DNA of 44,908 nucleotides from a virus, in IMG/VR virus record IMGVR_UViG_3300027972_000002, positions 1 through 44,908 of that record, one strand, 5' to 3'. Positions 7,456 to 44,007 of the stretch are shown piece by piece. How positions within the stretch are numbered: the first letter of the stretch is position 1; each line of letters starts with the position of its first letter. Position numbers and translations under genes: made by a program. The notes under the pieces were generated by a model. The model was not told where the DNA came from and did no database searches. It saw only the letters and a list, made by a program, of their open reading frames with translations.

Positions 7456-9711
7456 ATGAATCTACTATTTCTTGGCACTGAGCAAGACAAGCCCTATCTG
7501 CATAAGCTCAAGCCAATAATAGGTGTGAGTAATCATTGCAAGGTGATACTTACTAAGGCTACTACGCTATTCGAGATCACAACTTATTGCAAACTCCATA
7601 ATATTACTGGAGTTATCTGCACTCAGCCACAATTAATTGAGAAATTAACTGGAGAAGATTATGGAAATAAAGCCCCAAGTCTCGACAATTATGCAGGCTC
7701 TTTCTTCCAAAGAGGTGAGATTCAATGGGTGCTGGTGCATCCTTTGGCTCATACTATTACTGTCCCTTTCGGATCTTTTCTCTTAGCTCGCTACATCTCC
7801 AAGTTAATCGCACCTGAGAAATGGTACACTAGCACTGAGTTTAGCTGGGAGATAGTTAATGAATCAACTGTAGGAGCTATATATGAAAGATTTAAAGCAG
7901 CAACTCTACTCGCAGTGGATATTGAAACCATTAAGGATCCTCTCAGTATTACTTGTGTTGGCTACTGCGCTCTGTTTGTTTCTGCTGATGGACGCCTTAG
8001 TTCTCATAGCATCGTTATTCCATTTAGCTCCGAATATCTGCTCACATGGGTTGATAAATTTAACAGCTTGGGTGGAGGCAAGATTACACAAAACGGTAAG
8101 TACGATGTTAGTCACCTTACGAGATATGGACTCCCAATAGAGAATTGGTATTGGGATACAGCTACAGCTATGCACTGCTGGTTTAGTGAATTGCCAAAAG
8201 ACTTAGGATTCATTAACGCATTTATGGTGCGTGATGCAAGATACTGGAAACATGAGGCAGAAGCCTCTCAGAATTTAGAAGAATACTATCTCTACAATGC
8301 CAAGGATACTCATAACACACTTAATGCTATGATAGCTTGGTTGCTAGAAGCGCCTGCTTGGGCAAAGAGTAACTATCTGCAAGAGTTCCCGCTGTTATTT
8401 CCTTGCCACCTTAGTGAGATGACAGGACTTAAGCGCGATATGGCTAGGCAAGCAGCTCAAGTAACTAAGCTAGAAGGTAGAATCGCTACTAGGCAGCTAG
8501 GGCTTGAGGCTATGACTGTGCCAAGATTCAATCCTAATAGCCCGAAGCAAGTATTGCAATTACTTAAAGCTCTTGGCTGTGGTGATCTTACTAGCAGCGA
8601 CGAGACTAATCTTAAAAAGGCTATGCACCGCCACCCACTTAACACTAGAATATTAGGAGAGATACTTGAAATCAGAGGAGATAGAAAGCTGGTTAGCACA
8701 TATTTCGGTAAGGATTTTGGTACTGCTGGCCATGAGCGCGTTCTTTACAGTCTTAATCCTCACGGCACTGATACTGGCAGATTAGCCAGTAGAGAGCACC
8801 ACTTTTGGTGTGGGCTGCAGCTGCAAAATATTCCTAGAGGTGATGAGGTTAAATGCACCTTAATGGCTGATGATGGTTTCTTTATGGGAGAGGCAGATTA
8901 TGCTCAAGCGGAGTCAAGGGATACGGCTTATATCACTGGAGATACTAATCTTATTAATGCTGTGGAAGGTACTAGAGATTTTCACAGTGTTAATGCCAGC
9001 GCATTTTTCGGCGTGCCCTATGAGTCAATATATAGAGATGCCACGCCAGAATACTGGGATGCCACCTCAGAGGTGTTAGTCCCTGCTAAGGGCAATAAGA
9101 TACTAGATAAAGCCTTGCGTGATCTTAGCAAGAGAACTAATCACGGAGCCAATTACTGCATGGGTGAAGCTATTATGCTAGAAACCATGGGTATTGAGAA
9201 GGTACTGGAAGCTCAGAGATTACTTGGACTTCCTAAATACTTCAGCCCAATTCAAGTAACAGGCCATCTCTTAGCAGTATTCGCTAAGACTTATCCAGTA
9301 GTAGCCAGAGATTATCCTGAGTGGGTAGTTGCTACAATAGCTGCAAAGCATATGCTGGTAGGTGCAACTGGCTGGACTAGATATTGCTTTAAGAATCCAG
9401 CTCAAGATAAGCGCGCTAAGAATGCTTATGTAGCTCATAACCCGCAGAGTCTTAATGCTATGACACTTAATATAGCCTTTAAGCGCGTGTTTTATGAGGT
9501 GTGGTTGCCTAATCAGCGCGATTTTAAACTCTATGGCCAGATTCATGACTCAATTCTATTCGGCTATCGCATAGGTTTTGAGCATTTAGCTCAGGAAGTT
9601 AAACGCTGCATGGAATTTGTAGTACCAGTTACAGATATTAAGGGAATCACGAGAGACTTACTTGTGCCTGTGGATTTAAACATAGGCTTAACCAGATGGA
9701 GTGGAGAATAA
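7456..9711 (+). CDS. polA: Family A DNA polymerase with 3'-5' exonuclease domain
   Basis: 751 aa. The exonuclease domain has D155-x-E157 (AVDIETIKD), NGKYDVSHL, and the third motif YYLYNAKDT near residues 275-282. The polymerase domain has TGRLASR...LQNIPRG, motif A (DYAQAESR, D481), motif B (R555...K559...H563-G...Y567) and motif C (HDS, 697-699). No 5'-3' exonuclease domain is present. Two active-site positions are unusual: the O-helix residue equivalent to Phe762 of E. coli Pol I is His563, and motif C ends in Ser instead of Glu. This is the replicative polymerase. It overlaps or abuts the next small gene. Confidence 0.93.
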   Translation: MNLLFLGTEQDKPYLHKLKPIIGVSNHCKVILTKATTLFEITTYCKLHNITGVICTQPQLIEKLTGEDYGNKAPSLDNYAGSFFQRGEIQWVLVHPLAHTITVPFGSFLLARYISKLIAPEKWYTSTEFSWEIVNESTVGAIYERFKAATLLAVDIETIKDPLSITCVGYCALFVSADGRLSSHSIVIPFSSEYLLTWVDKFNSLGGGKITQNGKYDVSHLTRYGLPIENWYWDTATAMHCWFSELPKDLGFINAFMVRDARYWKHEAEASQNLEEYYLYNAKDTHNTLNAMIAWLLEAPAWAKSNYLQEFPLLFPCHLSEMTGLKRDMARQAAQVTKLEGRIATRQLGLEAMTVPRFNPNSPKQVLQLLKALGCGDLTSSDETNLKKAMHRHPLNTRILGEILEIRGDRKLVSTYFGKDFGTAGHERVLYSLNPHGTDTGRLASREHHFWCGLQLQNIPRGDEVKCTLMADDGFFMGEADYAQAESRDTAYITGDTNLINAVEGTRDFHSVNASAFFGVPYESIYRDATPEYWDATSEVLVPAKGNKILDKALRDLSKRTNHGANYCMGEAIMLETMGIEKVLEAQRLLGLPKYFSPIQVTGHLLAVFAKTYPVVARDYPEWVVATIAAKHMLVGATGWTRYCFKNPAQDKRAKNAYVAHNPQSLNAMTLNIAFKRVFYEVWLPNQRDFKLYGQIHDSILFGYRIGFEHLAQEVKRCMEFVVPVTDIKGITRDLLVPVDLNIGLTRWSGE

Positions 9712-9901: not shown

Positions 9902-11176
9902 ATGTCTGATAATACAGAGGCACCAACTGACTTCTTTGCTCGATACCTAGACTATGTAGGCGAAACTGAGTGCCCTAATATATATCATCGCTGGAGTATA
10001 ATTACAGCAGTGGCAGCTTTGCTAGGGCGTAACTTCGGACTGCAGCACGGGCACTTTACTATATATCCTAATCTCTACGTGATGCTTATGGGAGAGCCGG
10101 GAGCTAGGAAGTCAACATCAATTAAGACAGTAAAGAAATTAGTACGGCGCGCTGGTTATAATACCATTGCGGCCGATAAGACAACTAAGGAGAAATTCTT
10201 ACTTGACTTAGCAGGTGAGGAGGATAATAGGGTAGCCAGCAATCCGGCTGACATCTTAGATAAAAATTTGTGGGGAGAAGATGATGTTAATAGCACTACA
10301 CGACCAGTTGCTGAGTGTTTTATCATGGCTGATGAGTGGAACGAATTCACTAGTTTGGGTAATATTGAATTCTATTCTATGCTTGGTAATCTTTGGGATT
10401 ACGATGGGATTTATCAAAATAGAATCAAAACAGGCACAAGTGTTAGCATTAATAACCCTACTATTTCTATCCTTGCTGGAAATACTGCTACTGGCTTTTC
10501 TCTCGCATTTCCTCTTGAAATTATAGGTCAAGGATTCTTCAGTAGACTTATACTGGTACATGGAGAAAGTACAGGGCGCAAAATTACATTCCCTAAGATG
10601 CCCTCTGAAGCAGCTACAGCAGCAATGGTTGATTATATGCAGCAGATAAGAATGAAGTGTCAGGGAGTTGCAACACTAGAACCTGATGCAGAGATACTGC
10701 TTGATAAGATATATAAGGAATTCGTAGGTTTTGATGACGTGAGATTCCATAGTTATCTTAATAGACGATTCAGCCAGCTTCTCAAGCTGTGTCTCATATG
10801 CTGTGCTACTAGGCTTAGTAAAGTAATATCTGCTAAGGATGTAGTGCTGGCTAATACAATGCTAACTCATACTGAACACAATATGCCTAAAGCATTAGGT
10901 GAATTCGGTAAGGGTAAGAATAGTGATGTGGCCAATAAGATTGTGGACATATTAATTAACGCAAATAAGGCAGTAACGTTTCCGAAACTGTGGGAACTTG
11001 TGGGTCATGATTTAGAGAAGCAGTTACAGCTGGGAGAAATTCTTAGCAATCTGCGAGCAGCTGGTAAGATTCAGCAAGTAGGTACTGGATTCTTATGTAA
11101 GAGAAAGGCTATAGTGGAGATAGTAAATGACACTGTAGATTACAGTTTATTAACTAAAGAAGAAAAGGGAATGTGA
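9902..11176 (+). CDS. DUF3987-type helicase / primase-helicase-like ATPase
   Basis: 424 aa. Walker A is GEPGARKS (64-71), preceded by the typical 'YPNLYVMLMGEPG'. The Walker B-like segment is 'CFIMADEWNEF', followed by a polar 'IYQNRIKTG' segment and 'PTISILAGNTATGF' (sensor-like). This matches DUF3987 proteins, regarded as phage or plasmid replicative helicases with or without a primase domain; no primase motif is visible here. The C-terminal 80 residues look like a winged helix. No separate DnaB or primase was recognised in the window, so this is the best candidate for the replicative helicase. Confidence 0.82.
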   Translation: MSDNTEAPTDFFARYLDYVGETECPNIYHRWSIITAVAALLGRNFGLQHGHFTIYPNLYVMLMGEPGARKSTSIKTVKKLVRRAGYNTIAADKTTKEKFLLDLAGEEDNRVASNPADILDKNLWGEDDVNSTTRPVAECFIMADEWNEFTSLGNIEFYSMLGNLWDYDGIYQNRIKTGTSVSINNPTISILAGNTATGFSLAFPLEIIGQGFFSRLILVHGESTGRKITFPKMPSEAATAAMVDYMQQIRMKCQGVATLEPDAEILLDKIYKEFVGFDDVRFHSYLNRRFSQLLKLCLICCATRLSKVISAKDVVLANTMLTHTEHNMPKALGEFGKGKNSDVANKIVDILINANKAVTFPKLWELVGHDLEKQLQLGEILSNLRAAGKIQQVGTGFLCKRKAIVEIVNDTVDYSLLTKEEKGM

Positions 11177-34912: not shown

Positions 34913-36454
34913 TTAACAGCTACAATTTTCTAGTGATCCATACACTCTTGTGGAGTCATGATCTTGCGCGCCCATAGTGTTACTTATAGCTATGAAACTG
35001 CCGAATTCCTCCATCACCCTCACACTATAAGTTAGTAAGTCTAAGATCCCATCCACGTTATCTCTGCGAAGTGCATTGAACTGACTAATCTGATAATGCA
35101 CCTGAGTCTTAACATCCGGATGTATTATCACATCACCGCGCAGTAACTCTTTAAACATAGTGAGAATTCTAGTTACCTTTGATAGCGAGCCAGAGTATAT
35201 CGGTACACACTCAATTCCTGATACTTGTAACTGCTCACCAATGAATTGGAACCAATAGAGTAGCGAGTACTGATATGCGTTGGCTTCTATGGCTATAAGT
35301 GAGCAGTTATATTGGAAACACATGCTGTAAGCTGCTCGTATTGTGTCGCCAGGACTTAGGCGGTCTTCAATAATATGGCGTAATACTGGCTTGCCATCGA
35401 GTATCTGGAAGTGGCCGATACTTACGAAGTCACTATTAGCCTTATCATTCGAGGGATCTATTATTATATAGTCGCCAAGTGAAATCTCATGAGCATCGAA
35501 CGGATACTGCGGTACTTTAGAGAGGTCAATAGCATTATTACTACTGGCGTTTTCATCATTAAGTACCTCAGAGTAAAATATCTCTGGGTGGCCCGCATTT
35601 AAATCACTCTGAAATTCTTCCAGTAGCTGTGATAGTGGCTGCAAGTCCTCCCAAAGAGAGGTTCCATCCTGTAAGATGCCGCCAACAATGAATTTAGTCC
35701 AACTTGGGTTAGCTTTTAACTTGCGTAATATGCTCCATCTGGTAGGATACATATTAGCAACAAAGATATATAAGCATCCAGAGGGGGATTTAGCTTTCAT
35801 AGCTGTACCAATCATCCAGCGTTCAATTGCCTCGCTAACTGTTTGTGATTCTGCTTCCTCACGAGTCTGTATGTCCTCAAATATCATAATATCTGGACGC
35901 TCGTTGGCTCTGTTAGTACCACGAATTGCGCCATTCTTACCAATAGCTTGAAGAATTATAGTTCTGCCTCGAAATCCAAATACTTTAGTATCCTGCGTGT
36001 CAGTTTCCTTGCCGAGTTCCCAATTACCGAATACCGCTCGGATATTTGCATTAGATAGCATTGCACATACGTCAGTAATGATGTTAACTGCGAGTTTTTC
36101 ATTGGCACTAATTACAATGATGTAGCGACGAGATGTAAATAGGATGCAAAATACGATAAAGAATTTAATAAATGTGGTTTTACCAAAACCTCGAGGTAGC
36201 CCCAGAGCTAACTTAGAGAAATCACGCGGCTTAAACACGTAGCCTAAGAGCCAGTTCCAAGCAGATATGAATACTGGTGGGAATAAGTAGCGCATAAGAG
36301 ATGGCGCGGCCAGTGCTGCCAGGAAGTCAAGATTAGTCCTTGCAAGTTCGAACACTTGAGATTGATCGTAACTAGCTTGAGATATATCCACCTCTTCGCG
36401 AGAGTTATCTACTGGAGCTAATATGCCGAGCTGTGATTCTAAGTCTGTGGCCAT
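34913..36454 (-). CDS. terL: Large terminase subunit
   Basis: 513 aa. Walker A-type GLPRGFGKT (85-93), Walker B 'DIMIFEDI', and a C-terminal RNase H-like nuclease with 'YIIIDPSND', 'LIAIEANAYQ' and 'DGILDLLTYS' acidic positions. It cuts and translocates DNA into the procapsid with TerS and portal. The start lacks a clear Shine-Dalgarno sequence; the 62-aa gene ends 12 bases upstream, so coupling is possible. Confidence 0.93.
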   Translation of the reverse strand: MATDLESQLGILAPVDNSREEVDISQASYDQSQVFELARTNLDFLAALAAPSLMRYLFPPVFISAWNWLLGYVFKPRDFSKLALGLPRGFGKTTFIKFFIVFCILFTSRRYIIVISANEKLAVNIITDVCAMLSNANIRAVFGNWELGKETDTQDTKVFGFRGRTIILQAIGKNGAIRGTNRANERPDIMIFEDIQTREEAESQTVSEAIERWMIGTAMKAKSPSGCLYIFVANMYPTRWSILRKLKANPSWTKFIVGGILQDGTSLWEDLQPLSQLLEEFQSDLNAGHPEIFYSEVLNDENASSNNAIDLSKVPQYPFDAHEISLGDYIIIDPSNDKANSDFVSIGHFQILDGKPVLRHIIEDRLSPGDTIRAAYSMCFQYNCSLIAIEANAYQYSLLYWFQFIGEQLQVSGIECVPIYSGSLSKVTRILTMFKELLRGDVIIHPDVKTQVHYQISQFNALRRDNVDGILDLLTYSVRVMEEFGSFIAISNTMGAQDHDSTRVYGSLENCSC

Positions 36455-36466
36455 GAGTTTATCAGG

Positions 36467-36655
36467 TTACTTTATTGTTATTGATGATGTTGTAAGTGAG
36501 AAGTTATAGCGCATTTGCAGTAGTAAAGTCTCAGCCCGCTTGCGGTCATTGGCAAGAAGTGTTGCAGTAGTTGCAGCTTTAGCCTCATATATTAGCTTAG
36601 CTGCGGCCTCAGACTGAGCTGGAAGCTTTAGCGGCTGCTGTGTTATTTGACTCAT
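36467..36655 (-). CDS. Small protein overlapping terS (62 aa)
   Basis: Starts inside terS, with AGGAG nine bases before ATG 36655; the overlap is 47 bases in another frame. A helical Ala/Lys/Gln-rich N-terminal half followed by 'LLLQMRYNFSLTTSSITIK'. The strong ribosome site argues it is real. Unknown role, probably in packaging. Confidence 0.68.
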   Translation of the reverse strand: MSQITQQPLKLPAQSEAAAKLIYEAKAATTATLLANDRKRAETLLLQMRYNFSLTTSSITIK

Positions 36656-37181
36656 TTTTATATTCTCCTAACTTTCTAGTGAGTGCGGTAGTAGGTATTG
36701 TGATGAGTTCTTGCTCGCCAGCTTCCACTACTTGATTATGTGCATTGGTTACGAATTTGCTTGTGATACTGATTGGAAGAGATAGCTGCACAATAGTCTG
36801 GTTAATTACAGTGTTTTCAGGTGCACTAGCTCCGCGCCTCTTAGCTGCATTAATTACTGTGATGGCTCTAAGTACTTCCATAGGCTTATACATCATTGGA
36901 AGTAAGTCTTTCATTTTCTCTACTAGAGCATCCTCTATGAAATCATACTGTTTATCTCTGGCGGTTGCAGCTTGTAGTGACTCAAAGCGGCGGCCCGTGA
37001 CTTGCTGGGCGAAACTTTCCTCACTCAGAAGTTGTGAGATATAGGATTCACTAACTCCTAGAGCTGACGCGCAAACACCAGGACTCAGGCCATTGCCTAG
37101 CATCTCTAGAATCCGGCCTTGAGTACCCTCGTATTTAGTAACAGTGGCAATATCCAGATTCATATTTGTATTGTGTGTCAT
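36609..37181 (-). CDS. terS: Small terminase subunit-like DNA-binding protein
   Basis: 190 aa, first gene of the late operon, GGAG site. The N-terminal 55 residues contain a helix-turn-helix ('ILEMLGNGLSPGVCASALGVSESYISQLL') as in TerS. The central region is helical (about 60-115), and a beta-rich segment (VIVNQTIVQLSLP) precedes a basic C-terminus. It recognises the packaging site and feeds TerL. The position directly before TerL supports the call. Confidence 0.8.
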   Translation of the reverse strand: MTHNTNMNLDIATVTKYEGTQGRILEMLGNGLSPGVCASALGVSESYISQLLSEESFAQQVTGRRFESLQAATARDKQYDFIEDALVEKMKDLLPMMYKPMEVLRAITVINAAKRRGASAPENTVINQTIVQLSLPISITSKFVTNAHNQVVEAGEQELITIPTTALTRKLGEYKNESNNTAAAKASSSV

Positions 37182-37692: not shown

Positions 37693-38418
37693 ATGAACAC
37701 AACATCAACTATCAATACATCAGCAGTTAATATCAATACAATTGGCAATCTCACTCAGCCGCTGCAATCCAGCGTATTTATTCCTATGGTTGCTAGTAAG
37801 GATAAGGCAGTAGCAGCTGGCAATCGTTGGTGCAAGCTGATTAAGAAAGGAGAGAATAGTAAGTTAGCTGCTAGTTTGGCAGTGGAAGTGCCACAGATGC
37901 AAGTTAGTATCTTGGCTGATGCAATCACTAAGCCAGCAATCAGTGAGTATTTGCTGGCATCATTGGAGCAATTGCAGAATGGATATATTAAATCCCGTGC
38001 AGAAGCTGGCGCACTTAGTATTCAGTACAGTGAGCTATCACTAGTGAAACTTGAGGAATTCGCAGGGCTTGAGAATGAAGCTAGTGGTATTGGTCAGATC
38101 AGCTCTGAAAGAATTACTAACTGGTTCAATGCGGAATTGCGTGACTTGTGGATTGTGGCTCTCAGTGATCGCCTCGGAATCAGTGAGAGTGCAACAGATG
38201 CAGATGTTAAGAGGCTGGAACAGATTGCGAATCAAACGCGTGATAACTTGGCGAAGCTGGCAAGCAAGAAGCCAGTACATTTTGATGAGAGGGTGCGTAA
38301 TGCACTGAATGCAGCACTAGCCTGTGCTAATGAGGATGATAGCTTTGCTCAGAGAATCAGCGCGAAGCTTAATATTGCAGTGAGTGATGATGATATGTTA
38401 GCAAGTCTGGGTATGTAA
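37693..38418 (+). CDS. Protein of unknown function, first gene right of the divergent region (241 aa)
   Basis: ATG 37693 has GGAG six bases upstream; upstream in-frame codons are less likely. The N-terminal 30 residues are Thr/Asn-rich, the centre is helical ('LAVEVPQMQVSILADAIT', 'EYLLASLEQLQNGYIKSRAEAG'), and the C-terminus ends DDDMLASLGM. No DNA-binding motif was recognised. It lies between the candidate regulatory sites and the candidate origin. Its C-terminal half resembles the 211-aa protein (385-1020) in pattern and ending; a distant paralogue relation is tentative. Confidence 0.82.
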   Translation: MNTTSTINTSAVNINTIGNLTQPLQSSVFIPMVASKDKAVAAGNRWCKLIKKGENSKLAASLAVEVPQMQVSILADAITKPAISEYLLASLEQLQNGYIKSRAEAGALSIQYSELSLVKLEEFAGLENEASGIGQISSERITNWFNAELRDLWIVALSDRLGISESATDADVKRLEQIANQTRDNLAKLASKKPVHFDERVRNALNAALACANEDDSFAQRISAKLNIAVSDDDMLASLGM

Positions 38419-38470: not shown

Positions 38471-38546
38471 TCAAACATGAAAACTTCTCAATACTTCTCA
38501 AAACTTCATGAAACTTCACATAACTACACGAACTACCATATTTCAC
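38471..38546 (+). repeat. Iteron array, left arm
   Basis: Seven consecutive units in exact 10-bp register, approximating AAACTTCTCA: 38471-38480 (divergent), 38481-38490, 38491-38500, 38501-38510, 38511-38520, 38521-38530 and 38531-38540, followed by TTTCAC. The 3' part, AACTACCATATTTCAC (38531-38546), is an exact inverted copy of 38802-38817. The order of sub-motifs (AAACAT, three or four AAACTTC, two AACTAC, ATATTTCAC) is the same in both arms. Confidence 0.8.
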
Positions 38547-38557
38547 CTCCCCCATAA

Positions 38558-38578
38558 ATGACCCCTTTTTATGGTCAT
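38558..38578. other. ATGACC / GGTCAT hairpin
   Basis: ATGACC (38558-38563) pairs with GGTCAT (38573-38578) around a CCTTTTTAT loop, just inside the left iteron arm. Part of the candidate origin. Confidence 0.5.
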
Positions 38579-38661
38579 ATTCTGGATAGCACTGAGTACC
38601 ATAGCAGGGTAGATAGCATCTAGTAGTATATATAGGTAGTTAGTTAGGGGGGTGTATGTTT

Positions 38662-38673
38662 AATTTATAAATT
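38662..38673. other. AT-rich palindromic core of the candidate origin
   Basis: AATTTATAAATT is a perfect 12-bp palindrome within an AT-rich stretch (38657-38677), lying roughly midway between the two iteron arms. It could be the unwinding element. Confidence 0.55.
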
Positions 38674-38725
38674 TTTCGTAGGGTATGGATATACATCAAT
38701 CAACTCTCTATAGCACCTAGCTAGT

Positions 38726-38757
38726 TATAACACCATATAGCATCTATGGTAGTTATA
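38726..38757. other. Long imperfect hairpin / cruciform near the right iteron arm
   Basis: TATAACACCATA (38726-38737) pairs with TATGGT-A-GTTATA (38745-38757): 12 bp with one bulged A around a TAGCATC loop. It lies between the AT-rich core and the right iterons and may be a protein target or priming hairpin. Confidence 0.6.
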
Positions 38758-38801
38758 GAGTAAGGGCGAAAAATGAGGGGAAATAATGGAATCGGCATAT
38801 C

Positions 38802-38870
38802 GTGAAATATGGTAGTTTAGGTAGTTACCGGAAGTTTGGTGAAGTTTGATGAAGTTTTGAGATGTTTGGG
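38802..38870 (-). repeat. Iteron array, right arm (inverted)
   Basis: Units in 10-bp register, read on the minus strand as variants of TCAAACTTCA: 38811-38820, 38821-38830, 38831-38840, 38841-38850, 38851-38860 and 38861-38870, preceded by GTGAAATAT. It is the mirror image of the left arm with about 255 bp between. Confidence 0.8.
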
Positions 38871-38907: not shown

Positions 38908-39072
38908 ATGAAAGAGAAGTTTAAGGAGTATCTAGCAGAGATAGGCCTGAGATATGCAGTGCATTATGGTAAATACATGGATATTCCATTGGCAGTGCTG
39001 CAACTATGGCATAGTGACAAGTCGGAACAGACACAGAATGACATAAGGAGATATTATAATGAGTGTTGCTAA
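38908..39072 (+). CDS. Very small protein after the candidate origin (54 aa)
   Basis: ATG with AAAGGAG seven bases upstream, 55 codons to the TAA at 39070. Sequence is helical with a Tyr/Trp-rich middle ('YAVHYGKYMDIPLAVLQLW') that resembles small phage proteins of unknown role. It overlaps the next gene by 14 bases. Good ribosome site and coding flow, but no family. Confidence 0.65.
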   Translation: MKEKFKEYLAEIGLRYAVHYGKYMDIPLAVLQLWHSDKSEQTQNDIRRYYNECC

Positions 39073-39397: not shown

Positions 39398-39949
39398 ATG
39401 AAAACAACTACACTGGCAAGACTGCGTGAAAATTACGCCTGTAAGAGAGGCTATAACTTAATAGCGAATCATGTAGGAATTGAGTTTACAGGGGATATTA
39501 GCCTAGAAACTATTCTGGATAATAACGGATTGCATGACTGTATCTGGTCACTGCGCGCAACTGATGGAGGTAAAGAGATTGCACAGGAATTTGCAATAAG
39601 AGTTGCAGTGACTGTATATTTTGAGTTGTCTTGGGTAACGTGGGCAAATAACTGGTTAGCTGGCAGTGATAGAAGTATCGAGGCTGCTGCTGCTGCTGCT
39701 GCTGATGCTGCTGATGCTTATTCTGCTGCTGCTGCTGCTGCTGCTTATGCTGCTGCTGCTGATGCTTATACTGCTGCTGATGCTGCTGATGCTTACGCTG
39801 CTGCTGCTGCTGCTACTGCTGCTTATGCTGCTGCTGCTACTGATGCTGCTGGTGCTGCTGCTGATGCTTATTCTGCTGCTGCTGCTGATGCTGCTGGTGC
39901 TGCTAAACAATCACAAATTAACTTATTACGCGAATTAATCACTAAATAA
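39398..39949 (+). CDS. Ala-rich repeat protein encoded by a GCT tract (183 aa)
   Basis: Start ATG 39398; GGAG lies upstream. Residues 1-95 are a folded-looking N-terminal domain ('YACKRGYNLIANHV', 'GLHDCIWSLRATDG', 'VYFELSWVTWANNWL'). Residues 96-169 are a low-complexity run of Ala with Asp, Tyr, Thr, Ser and Gly, encoded by GCT with GAT, TAT, ACT, TCT and GGT variants, so the DNA is a near-trinucleotide repeat (39683-39904). A basic helix ends the protein. The 'SDRSIEAAAAAAADAADAY' layout resembles Ala-rich phage/Imm-5-like proteins of unknown function. The repeat tract may vary in length between phages. Confidence 0.78.
   Translation: MKTTTLARLRENYACKRGYNLIANHVGIEFTGDISLETILDNNGLHDCIWSLRATDGGKEIAQEFAIRVAVTVYFELSWVTWANNWLAGSDRSIEAAAAAAADAADAYSAAAAAAAYAAAADAYTAADAADAYAAAAAATAAYAAAATDAAGAAADAYSAAAADAAGAAKQSQINLLRELITK
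39683..39904 (+). repeat. GCT trinucleotide-derived repeat inside the Ala-rich gene
   Basis: 74 consecutive codons, nearly all GCT; the exceptions (GAT, TAT/TAC, ACT, TCT, GGT) are mostly single-base changes of GCT and end in T or C. Other frames of this tract read as Leu-rich or Ser-rich strings that look like ORFs but are only shadows. Confidence 0.85.
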
Positions 39950-41908: not shown

Positions 41909-42254
41909 CACATCTGCGGCCCCTATTAAGAAACACCAGATACTAAAATATGTCATAGATAATGACCTATTACAGAAAACTCATGCTCGTTTTAACTGTG
42001 CTTATGTATGTAATGTAATTAAGCAAGCAGATGATAAACTGTACAGCTCAGATGAGTATAGACATAGTTTTGGGCCTGCTACTACAGAGTTATTAACTGC
42101 AATTAGGCGCTCCATATCACCGTTCAATACAGTCACCCAGTGGTTAGAGTGTGGCGTCAATAACAACTATCAAGTGCAGCTTGTGGCTGGATTACAGTAT
42201 AGAAAAGATTGGGTACAAGCTATGTATGAAGCCTGCCTAGAAAGAGATGAGTGA
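41898..42254 (+). CDS. Protein of unknown function (118 aa)
   Basis: ATG 41898 has GGAG seven bases upstream; this start is preferred over earlier in-frame codons that sit in the previous gene. Mixed helix/strand with Tyr and Cys-rich segments ('FNCAYVCNVIKQADDKLYSSDEYRHSFG'). The C-terminal part ends 'QAMYEACLERDE'. No family recognised; it overlaps or abuts the helicase gene. Confidence 0.77.
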   Translation: MENNTSAAPIKKHQILKYVIDNDLLQKTHARFNCAYVCNVIKQADDKLYSSDEYRHSFGPATTELLTAIRRSISPFNTVTQWLECGVNNNYQVQLVAGLQYRKDWVQAMYEACLERDE

Positions 42255-44007
42255 TAACATGAGCACAACTAATCCCACTAACACTCTTAATAAAGCCAGA
42301 CTAGCAGAGTTACTTGCTAGAGCTAGGGCCGGAGCAACTAAGGTAGTGATGCCATCGGCAGCTGCTACTACAGTAACCACAAACACTGCCGCACCAGCTG
42401 TAACTTCTAGTGTAGGAATGCACGGTGAAGCTATCAGCTATAATCCTAAGCAACAAGAGATCATAACTCTTGCCACCTCCGGTAAAGACTGTGTGCTTTT
42501 AGGTGCAGCAGGAACAGGCAAAAGTACTTGCCAGCGAGGTGTAGTAAGTACTCTAATAGCAGAAAACAAAGCAGGTATCTTAGCTGATGATGGCCACAAG
42601 CACTTAAAGCCAGGAACTCCCAGCATACTTATCTGTGCCTATACTCGCAGGGCAGTAAATAACATACGCAAAGTTATGCCTGCTAATATGCGAGATAACT
42701 GCATCACAATACATAAGCTCCTTGAATACGCTCCAGTGTATTATGAGGAATACGATGATGTGCAGGGTAAAGATGTTAAAACTATGCGCTTTGAACCTAC
42801 TCGCAATCATATGCGCCCACTCTCTTCCAGTATTACCACAGTAATCTTTGAAGAATCCAGTATGATAGGCACAGAACTATTCGCAGAGGTTCTCACCGCA
42901 TTACCTCATACTGTGCAATTCATATTCATTGGGGATATTCAGCAACTTCCGCCAGTATTCGGCAGTGCAGTTCTTGGCTACAAGATGCTGGAGTTACCAG
43001 TAGTAGAACTTACAGAAGTATATAGGCAAGCACTGGAATCACCCATTATAAGACTTGCACATAGAATCTTAAGTGGTAAGCCTATTGCGGCTGAAGAGTT
43101 CACTGATTGGAATGTGGAGAATAAGCTAAAGCTGCACCCATGGAAGAAGCGCCTCAGTCCTGATATCGGCATTCTCACAATAGCTAAGTTCTTCCATGCT
43201 GCCTTAGATGCCGGATCTTATAATCCAGAAACAGATATGATTCTCATCCCATTTAATAAGTCATTTGGCACAGAAGAGGTTAACCGCCACATTGCACAGC
43301 ACATAGCAACTAGCAAGGGTGAAACTGTGCATGAAGTAGTGGCTGGATTCAACAAGCACTATTATGCAGTTGGCGATAAAGTAATGTATGAGAAAGAGGA
43401 CGCAATTATCACTCATATCTCTATCAATGGAACTTACATCGGCACAAGATTCGCGGAAGCCTCTCCTTTGCTAGATCGTTGGGGTAACTATAGAACTCCA
43501 GAAACAGCTGATGCAGAGACAGTTCATGCTACAGCACAAGAAACTAGCGAAGAAGATATAGATGCACTCTTGGCTGATATGAGTTTCAGTGGCAGTGATG
43601 GCGAGGAAGAACGCAAGCGTGAATCATCTCATGTAATTACGCTACGCCTACTTGAGAGCAATGAGGAAGTTACCATTAATACTGCTGCGGCTGTAAATGC
43701 TATGATGCTAGGTTATGCAATAACAGTACATAAGGCTCAAGGCTCGGAAGCACGTAAAGTATTTGTAATCATTCATCAGTCACATAGCTCTATGATTCAG
43801 CGTGAGCTGTTATATACTGCGGTAACTAGAGCTAGAGAATCACTCTATGTTATCTGTGAGCCTGATACCTTTATTCGTGGTATTGAGAAGCAGAAGATTA
43901 AGGGAGAGACATTGGCAGAGAAAGCAGTGTTCTTTAAAGGTAAGCTAGATAGGAAAGAGCAGCAGAGCAGCATAGTTAGATTAACAACTCAGGAGACATA
44001 TCCATGA
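42247..44007 (+). CDS. SF1B DNA helicase (Dda/RecD-like)
   Basis: 586 aa from ATG 42247; ATG 42259 is an alternative and matches the ATAACATGAGCACA start cassette seen at two other genes. Q-like motif 'SYNPKQQEI' (64-72), Walker A GAAGTGKS (86-93), motif Ia 'LICAYTRRAVNNI', motif II-like 'VIFEESSM', motif III 'IFIGDIQQLPPV', motif IV 'VYRQ', and C-terminal motifs 'AITVHKAQGSEARKVFVII' and 'YTAVTRARESLYVI'. The motif II acidic pair is E-E and not D-E. A 60-residue Ala/Thr-rich N-terminal tail precedes the helicase. Likely unwinds origin or recombination intermediates with PolA. Confidence 0.92.
   Translation: MSDNMSTTNPTNTLNKARLAELLARARAGATKVVMPSAAATTVTTNTAAPAVTSSVGMHGEAISYNPKQQEIITLATSGKDCVLLGAAGTGKSTCQRGVVSTLIAENKAGILADDGHKHLKPGTPSILICAYTRRAVNNIRKVMPANMRDNCITIHKLLEYAPVYYEEYDDVQGKDVKTMRFEPTRNHMRPLSSSITTVIFEESSMIGTELFAEVLTALPHTVQFIFIGDIQQLPPVFGSAVLGYKMLELPVVELTEVYRQALESPIIRLAHRILSGKPIAAEEFTDWNVENKLKLHPWKKRLSPDIGILTIAKFFHAALDAGSYNPETDMILIPFNKSFGTEEVNRHIAQHIATSKGETVHEVVAGFNKHYYAVGDKVMYEKEDAIITHISINGTYIGTRFAEASPLLDRWGNYRTPETADAETVHATAQETSEEDIDALLADMSFSGSDGEEERKRESSHVITLRLLESNEEVTINTAAAVNAMMLGYAITVHKAQGSEARKVFVIIHQSHSSMIQRELLYTAVTRARESLYVICEPDTFIRGIEKQKIKGETLAEKAVFFKGKLDRKEQQSSIVRLTTQETYP

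Follow-up and report, generated by a model that had tools for sequence, protein, structure and literature searches.

What is the function of a locus in which two arrays of short tandem units face each other in mirror image across an AT-rich core? The locus lies in a virus contig of 44,908 bp, the whole of which is called the window here, and the initial annotation had proposed it as a candidate replication origin. An origin is to be expected in this phage, because it encodes PolA, a primase/helicase, a Dda-like helicase and recombination genes. Our analysis suggests, at a little better than an even chance, that the locus is an iteron-type replication origin in mirror form, whose repeats also touch early transcription. 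The proposal stands as the best reading, with the arrays and the AT-rich element conserved in relatives, while three parts of it, on helical phasing, on binding by the neighbouring 241-aa protein and on GC skew, do not hold.

Structure of the locus in the window

The minus strand of the window carries the late genes, starting from the terminase genes TerS and TerL. The plus strand carries the early genes, with the 241-aa gene, the arrays, small ORFs and the Dda-like helicase, and the early genes continue across the record ends with a PDDEXK exonuclease, a Sak4-like protein, the family A DNA polymerase and the primase/helicase. The genes that matter for the argument are as follows.

7456 to 9711, plus strand: family A DNA polymerase
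9902 to 11176, plus strand: primase/helicase-type protein (DUF3987, PHROG 14296)
34913 to 36454, minus strand: large terminase TerL (PHROG 38), the query for finding relatives
36609 to 37181, minus strand: small terminase TerS (PHROG 16503), its helix-turn-helix near-invariant across phages with differing units
37693 to 38418, plus strand: 241-aa protein, candidate array-binding or initiator protein, with a family of about 25 homologues at the same position
38908 to 39072, plus strand: first early-strand ORF past the right array, 54 aa, of no family
42247 to 44007, plus strand: Dda-like (SF1) helicase

The site had been described as lying beside the point where transcription diverges, which holds only roughly: the divergence is at about 37.2 to 37.7 kb, and the arrays lie about 0.8 kb further on, past the 241-aa gene. 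Further into the early genes, at 39398-39949, a 183-aa protein (PHROG 18326, unknown function) contains a long GCT/GAT trinucleotide-repeat stretch that encodes an Ala-rich (AAADAADAY) tract, and a similar Ala-rich ORF is seen near the locus in the relative L043.

The arrays and the elements between them were read as follows.

38481 to 38546, plus strand: left array, units AAACTTCTCA, ATACTTCTCA, AAACTTCATG, AAACTTCACA, TAACTACACG and AACTACCATA, then TTTCAC (repeat and period analysis)
38547 to 38801, no strand: core, 255 bp between the arrays
38558 to 38578, plus strand: box ATGACC-CCTTTTTAT-GGTCAT just inside the left array (read from the sequence)
38656 to 38707, plus strand: conserved AT-rich central element near the core midpoint, next to a G run; it contains the palindrome at 38662-38673 and may serve for DNA unwinding
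38726 to 38757, plus strand: imperfect core hairpin, described for the window alone
38768 to 38780, plus strand: GAAAAATGAGGGG, on the inner side of the right array, mirroring the CCCC/TTTTT box more loosely (read from the sequence)
38802 to 38867, minus strand: right array, the mirror image, reading on the minus strand AAACATCTCA, AAACTTCATC, AAACTTCACC, AAACTTCCGG, TAACTACCTA and AACTACCATA, then TTTCAC

A repeat search confirmed the two inverted arrays of 10-bp units about 255 bp apart: each arm is 66 nt long, the arms are 80% complementary and 255 nt apart, and the direct-repeat spacing is exactly 10 in each arm. The identical order of sub-motifs and the exact 16-bp inverted match that had been noted are likewise borne out, since each of the six units in one arm has its counterpart at the same rank in the other arm, and the core-facing ends of the two arms carry the same 16 bp, AACTACCATATTTCAC (38531-38546 with 38802-38817). 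Period 10 is the best in both arms and was equalled by none of 500 shuffles, and the inverted-repeat score is 33.5, whereas 1000 Markov simulations of the region gave no score above 15.0. The locus is the sole match in the 44.9-kb record, both by an ungapped inverted-repeat scan and by a 6-mer scan. Multiple tandem repeats of initiator-binding size, which mark an iteron-type origin, are therefore present, with units that are short (10 bp or less). The 12-bp palindrome, AATTTATAAATT, and the hairpin were also found where they had been reported, and no supported gene overlaps the locus, the only overlapping ORFs being two on the minus strand of 68 and 54 aa.

Long inverted arms might also act as RNA, by pairing into a long stem, and the strand does fold well (z -8.4). 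However, such folding is expected of any long inverted repeat, and the arm mismatches have no wobble bias on the plus strand (16 of 84 against 14 expected, with 42 transversions). Neither does RNA pairing need tandem units, and no Rfam match is present at the locus. We regard a structured RNA as the least probable of the readings considered here.

Shared layout and private units in related phages

The initial annotation had suggested the comparison of the same locus in related phages, and this comparison supports the origin reading. A TerL scan retrieved 71 contigs, and about 20 distinct relatives have the same layout at the same place, in the order of terminase genes running one way, usually an opposite gene of about 220-250 aa, left array, core, inverted right array and early genes. 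The arrays and the central AT-rich element are conserved with this gene order. The core measures about 170-455 bp across relatives, mostly 170-300 bp, and the unit length is 5, 7, 8, 9 or 10 bp depending on the phage, with a period that is usually equal in the two arms of one phage (period test). The following units were read in relatives.

L020: CATTATCA (8 bp)
L022/G006: CATACCTCA (9 bp)
L032: CCAAAATG (8 bp)
L033: TAGACTG (7 bp)
L042: CCAAA (5 bp)
L043: GCTATCCC (8 bp)
L044: TGCCTAAC (8 bp)
L045: CCGCTAGC (8 bp)
L046: CCAATTCA (8 bp)

L050/L053 and L055 are weak examples, and the arms of L024 are long and irregular. The exact 10-bp spacing in the window had been taken to place every unit on one face of the helix; the spacing is real, but since the unit lengths of relatives vary, 10-bp helical phasing is no rule of the family. 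Such phasing is customary in iteron-type origins but does not define them. Aeromonas phage P5 and Polaromonas phage Tiera, both covered by the 6-mer scan as well, and EBPR podovirus 3 yielded no arrays.

Because the arms had originally been selected by mutual similarity, the comparison of own with foreign arms was redone from anchors placed on the AT-rich element alone and picked by eye. The two arms of one phage share a mean of 24.3 inverted 6-mers, against 9.0 with the arms of other phages and 13.0 in direct orientation, and none of 20,000 permutations reached the own-arm sharing by random pairing. An out-of-sample case is L122, which belongs to a metagenome-assembled bacterial genome and was retrieved from a different collection by TerL similarity only; this contig has a homologue of the 241-aa protein, mirrored TTTTCTG units (7 bp), a 247-bp core and a central AT-rich element.

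The AT-rich element takes the form ATTTTnAAATTTTnAA, followed by a G or C run, and its offset from the core midpoint averages 21 nt, against 60 expected if its position were uniform. An automatic 44-bp motif search settled on another core motif, TAGTTAGTTATAGGGG-like, and for this reason a manual alignment of the AT-rich element was made and tried on held-out genomes. The resulting sequence-only model, R1, was built from 16 phages and finds the element at the predicted core in the held-out genomes G001 (E 3e-5), G005 (5e-4), G003 (6e-4), L053 (0.003) and L122 (0.012), the next matches after these five having E values of 0.1 and worse. L053 is a weak test because it is close to L050, a member of the model; the other four are less close. 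The match to the window at 38656-38707 (E 2.4e-4) is not independent, since the window is part of the model, and in several phages the consensus match of the AT-rich element alone is not significant. These results show a conserved AT-rich element, a candidate for unwinding, beside the repeats, as is expected of an origin. Boxes of the type (G)ACCCCTTTTT in relatives resemble the window box at 38558-38578, and a second conserved core motif, about GTAGTTAGTTATAGGGG, which the automatic search had turned up, lies to the left of the AT-rich element in the window, L020, L022, L024 and L043.

Among cultured phages, PaP2 (Jamesmcgillvirus, Fredfastierviridae) has mirrored arrays after gene p01, with units of the CAAGGT type that measure about 10 bp, and this is the only match across its genome. 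The R1 search did not match PaP2, whose core was aligned by eye only. In the five members of the PaP2 genus that were compared, the arms and core are near-invariant, in contrast to a left flank marked by large insertions and deletions; the right array is 23 bases longer in two members. As this podovirus lineage includes the cultured Pseudomonas aeruginosa phages PaP2, 119X and PaMx41, the layout is testable at once.

Many TerL-bearing contigs (L017, L019, L058, L060, L061, L063, L082 and L085) end 0-400 bp past the 241-aa gene or its counterpart; the ends fall at differing points and are either assembly breaks or real ends. In the G006 phage (L005 7154-7585) the first early gene past the right array encodes a protein with an HExxH-like motif (HELAH), for which the window has no counterpart at the equivalent position.

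Candidate readers and functions of the arrays

Which protein reads the arrays is a question on which the gene neighbourhood offers two candidates. The 241-aa protein had been suggested as a binder, and its family gene adjoins the arrays in most relatives. The evidence has since weakened this suggestion: the family is acidic (pI about 5), the fairly confident structure model (pLDDT 83, pTM 0.56) had no match at E <= 0.001 in PDB or BFVD, and L044 has arrays with no homologue between TerS and array, nor anywhere in its 11-kb record. The family has no sequence match to known proteins, and tblastn with the 241-aa protein against named phages gave no match. Proteins of similar size lie near TerS in PaP2/Tiera and in G003/L060/L063/L067, with no detectable similarity to the 241-aa family, and when the profile of this family was compared with PaP2 p01 and the L060/L063/L067 group, no relation was detected; modelled at low confidence, the G003 protein shows a helix order broadly similar to that of the 241-aa protein. 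In L060, L063, L067 and L107 (4439-5119) a second family of about 200-226 aa, with no detectable similarity, replaces the 241-aa gene beside TerS. As the initial annotation had stated, no initiator-like protein has been recognised. The locus also draws attention to a protein family, so far uncharacterised, that may supply the initiator. The second candidate, TerS, is unlikely to be the reader of the units, because its helix-turn-helix (ISQLL motif) is near-invariant while the units differ completely.

The same property of TerS bears on whether the locus could be a DNA packaging site, with TerS binding arrays that flank a cut site in the core in the manner of pacL-pacC-pacR of SPP1. The TerS gene lies about 1.3 kb from the arrays, several contigs end close to them, and eight PaP2-type records (PaP2, PaMx43, Ph_15, 119X, PaMx46, PaMx33, PaMx35 and PaMx41) start at nearly one point in the core. 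However, phages with wholly different units share nearly the same helix-turn-helix, and the DNA-binding domain of the SF6/SPP1 TerS has little preference for repeats (PMC4737164). In the window and other long contigs the sequence passes through the core without a break, and the contig ends near arrays fall at differing points. The remaining PaP2-like records start elsewhere, outside the core, so that the common start may be a convention. We therefore consider packaging quite unlikely. The shared start of the eight records, in which PaP2 is L087, is in itself either a convention or a physical end.

A more serious competitor, although still an unlikely one, is a control region: a regulator of the early genes would use the arrays as operators and loop the DNA, the AT-rich centre lending flexibility and the units diverging through selection for different immunity specificities. 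In most distant relatives a sigma-70-like consensus match, TTGAC...TAnnnT, is so placed that only a few bases separate its -10 from the inner edge of the right arm, as with TTGACG-18-TATAGT in L044, and the mirrored left side rarely has such a match. Operators explain these right-arm promoters equally well, and the episomal persistence of Shea, a PaP2-like phage (PMC13348215), also counts for them. Against this, an operator alone leaves the conserved AT-rich midpoint and the promoter-distant left array unexplained, the promoter match is absent from the window's own clade (window, L020, L022 and L024), and no recognisable repressor was found among the early genes scanned (Pfam, PHROGs). Operators scattered through the genome were rejected, since unit matches outside the locus are near chance level.

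Some plasmid centromeres are tandem repeats around a promoter. The layout of the locus resembles these, and Shea is maintained as an episome (PMC13348215), so the repeats could be bound by an adaptor protein at a partition site of an episomal phage. No ParA, ParM or TubZ-like gene was found among the early genes scanned, a scan that left out several small ORFs, and we hold partition to be very improbable.

For the iteron-type origin, the analysis demonstrates the arrays, their agreement within each phage and divergence between phages, the conserved AT-rich midpoint, the common gene order and the promoter-like sequences, while protein binding, melting, replication start and regulation at the locus are what we infer. 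The tandem units of the two arrays would be bound by a phage-coded protein, perhaps the 241-aa product encoded next to them; acting on the central AT-rich element from both sides, this protein would melt the AT-rich DNA and so admit the helicase and polymerase of the phage. A mirrored arrangement would be well suited to bidirectional loading. With the right array at the start of an early promoter in most distant relatives, the binding protein could also time early transcription. GC skew had been named as a check on the origin, which a minimum elsewhere would refute, and the cumulative minimum is 9.4 kb from the arrays of the window; the skew is confounded with gene direction in these genomes. 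The minimum falls at the array in two of seven genomes (G003 and G005), within 2.7 kb of it in PaP2 and G002, and at a distance of 9-12 kb in the remaining three (the window, G006 and G001).

A more elaborate form of the origin, which we consider rather doubtful, has the mirrored iteron arrays load two replication machines symmetrically, the units and their cognate protein drifting together rapidly and replication becoming private to each lineage. In such a scheme about 55% identity in the neighbouring protein would already accompany different units, and the privacy would be directed against competitors or satellites. The pressure behind the change of units may be incompatibility, superinfection or satellites. 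A unit that is common to both arms and swapped wholly between related phages, with the AT-rich centre kept, offers a natural series for the study of co-change between a site and its reader. For most uncultured tailed phages the origins are not known; the layout provides a recognisable signature across one phage lineage.

Comparison with known systems

In the literature open to searching we found no description of mirrored arrays around a central AT element with a unit whose sequence and length vary between lineages. A parallel for the units is found in the geminiviruses, an unrelated virus group, whose iterons are short, virus-specific, different between related viruses and matched to a cognate protein. 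The geminivirus origin works by rolling circle with a nicking stem-loop, so that the likeness lies in the short virus-specific units, while the type of origin and the virus group differ. In E. coli oriC the unwinding element is not midway between the arrays, and no DnaA box is present in the array region here; what oriC has in common with the locus is two initiator arrays and an AT-rich unwinding element (PMC5043065).

It has been well established that iterons with an AT-rich unwinding element define origins, such as oriL and oriR of SPP1 (PMC6316719) and those of iteron plasmids and lambda (PMC5043065). The Bacillus phage SPP1, with a genome of similar size, combines an AT-rich unwinding element with repeats that serve a phage initiator, but its origins as described have direct repeats rather than two mirrored arrays round the AT element, and its initiator gp38 is known, whereas no matching initiator was found here (PMC6316719). 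The lambda origin and the iteron plasmids P1, F, RK2 and R6K share multiple initiator sites beside an AT-rich region (PMC5043065); the iterons of plasmids mostly run in direct orientation and generally keep helical phase, in contrast to the mirrored units of 5-10 bp, often out of phase, that are described here. The pac site of SPP1, pacL-pacC-pacR, likewise has repeats flanking a central site near the terminase genes (PMC6316719, PMC4737164), but it overlaps the start of the TerS gene, whereas here about 1.3 kb lie between the site and that gene, and the TerS helix-turn-helix hardly changes while the units vary. Iterons with an AT-rich unwinding element are known already; their mirrored arrangement, with units that change between related phages, has no counterpart in the literature searched.
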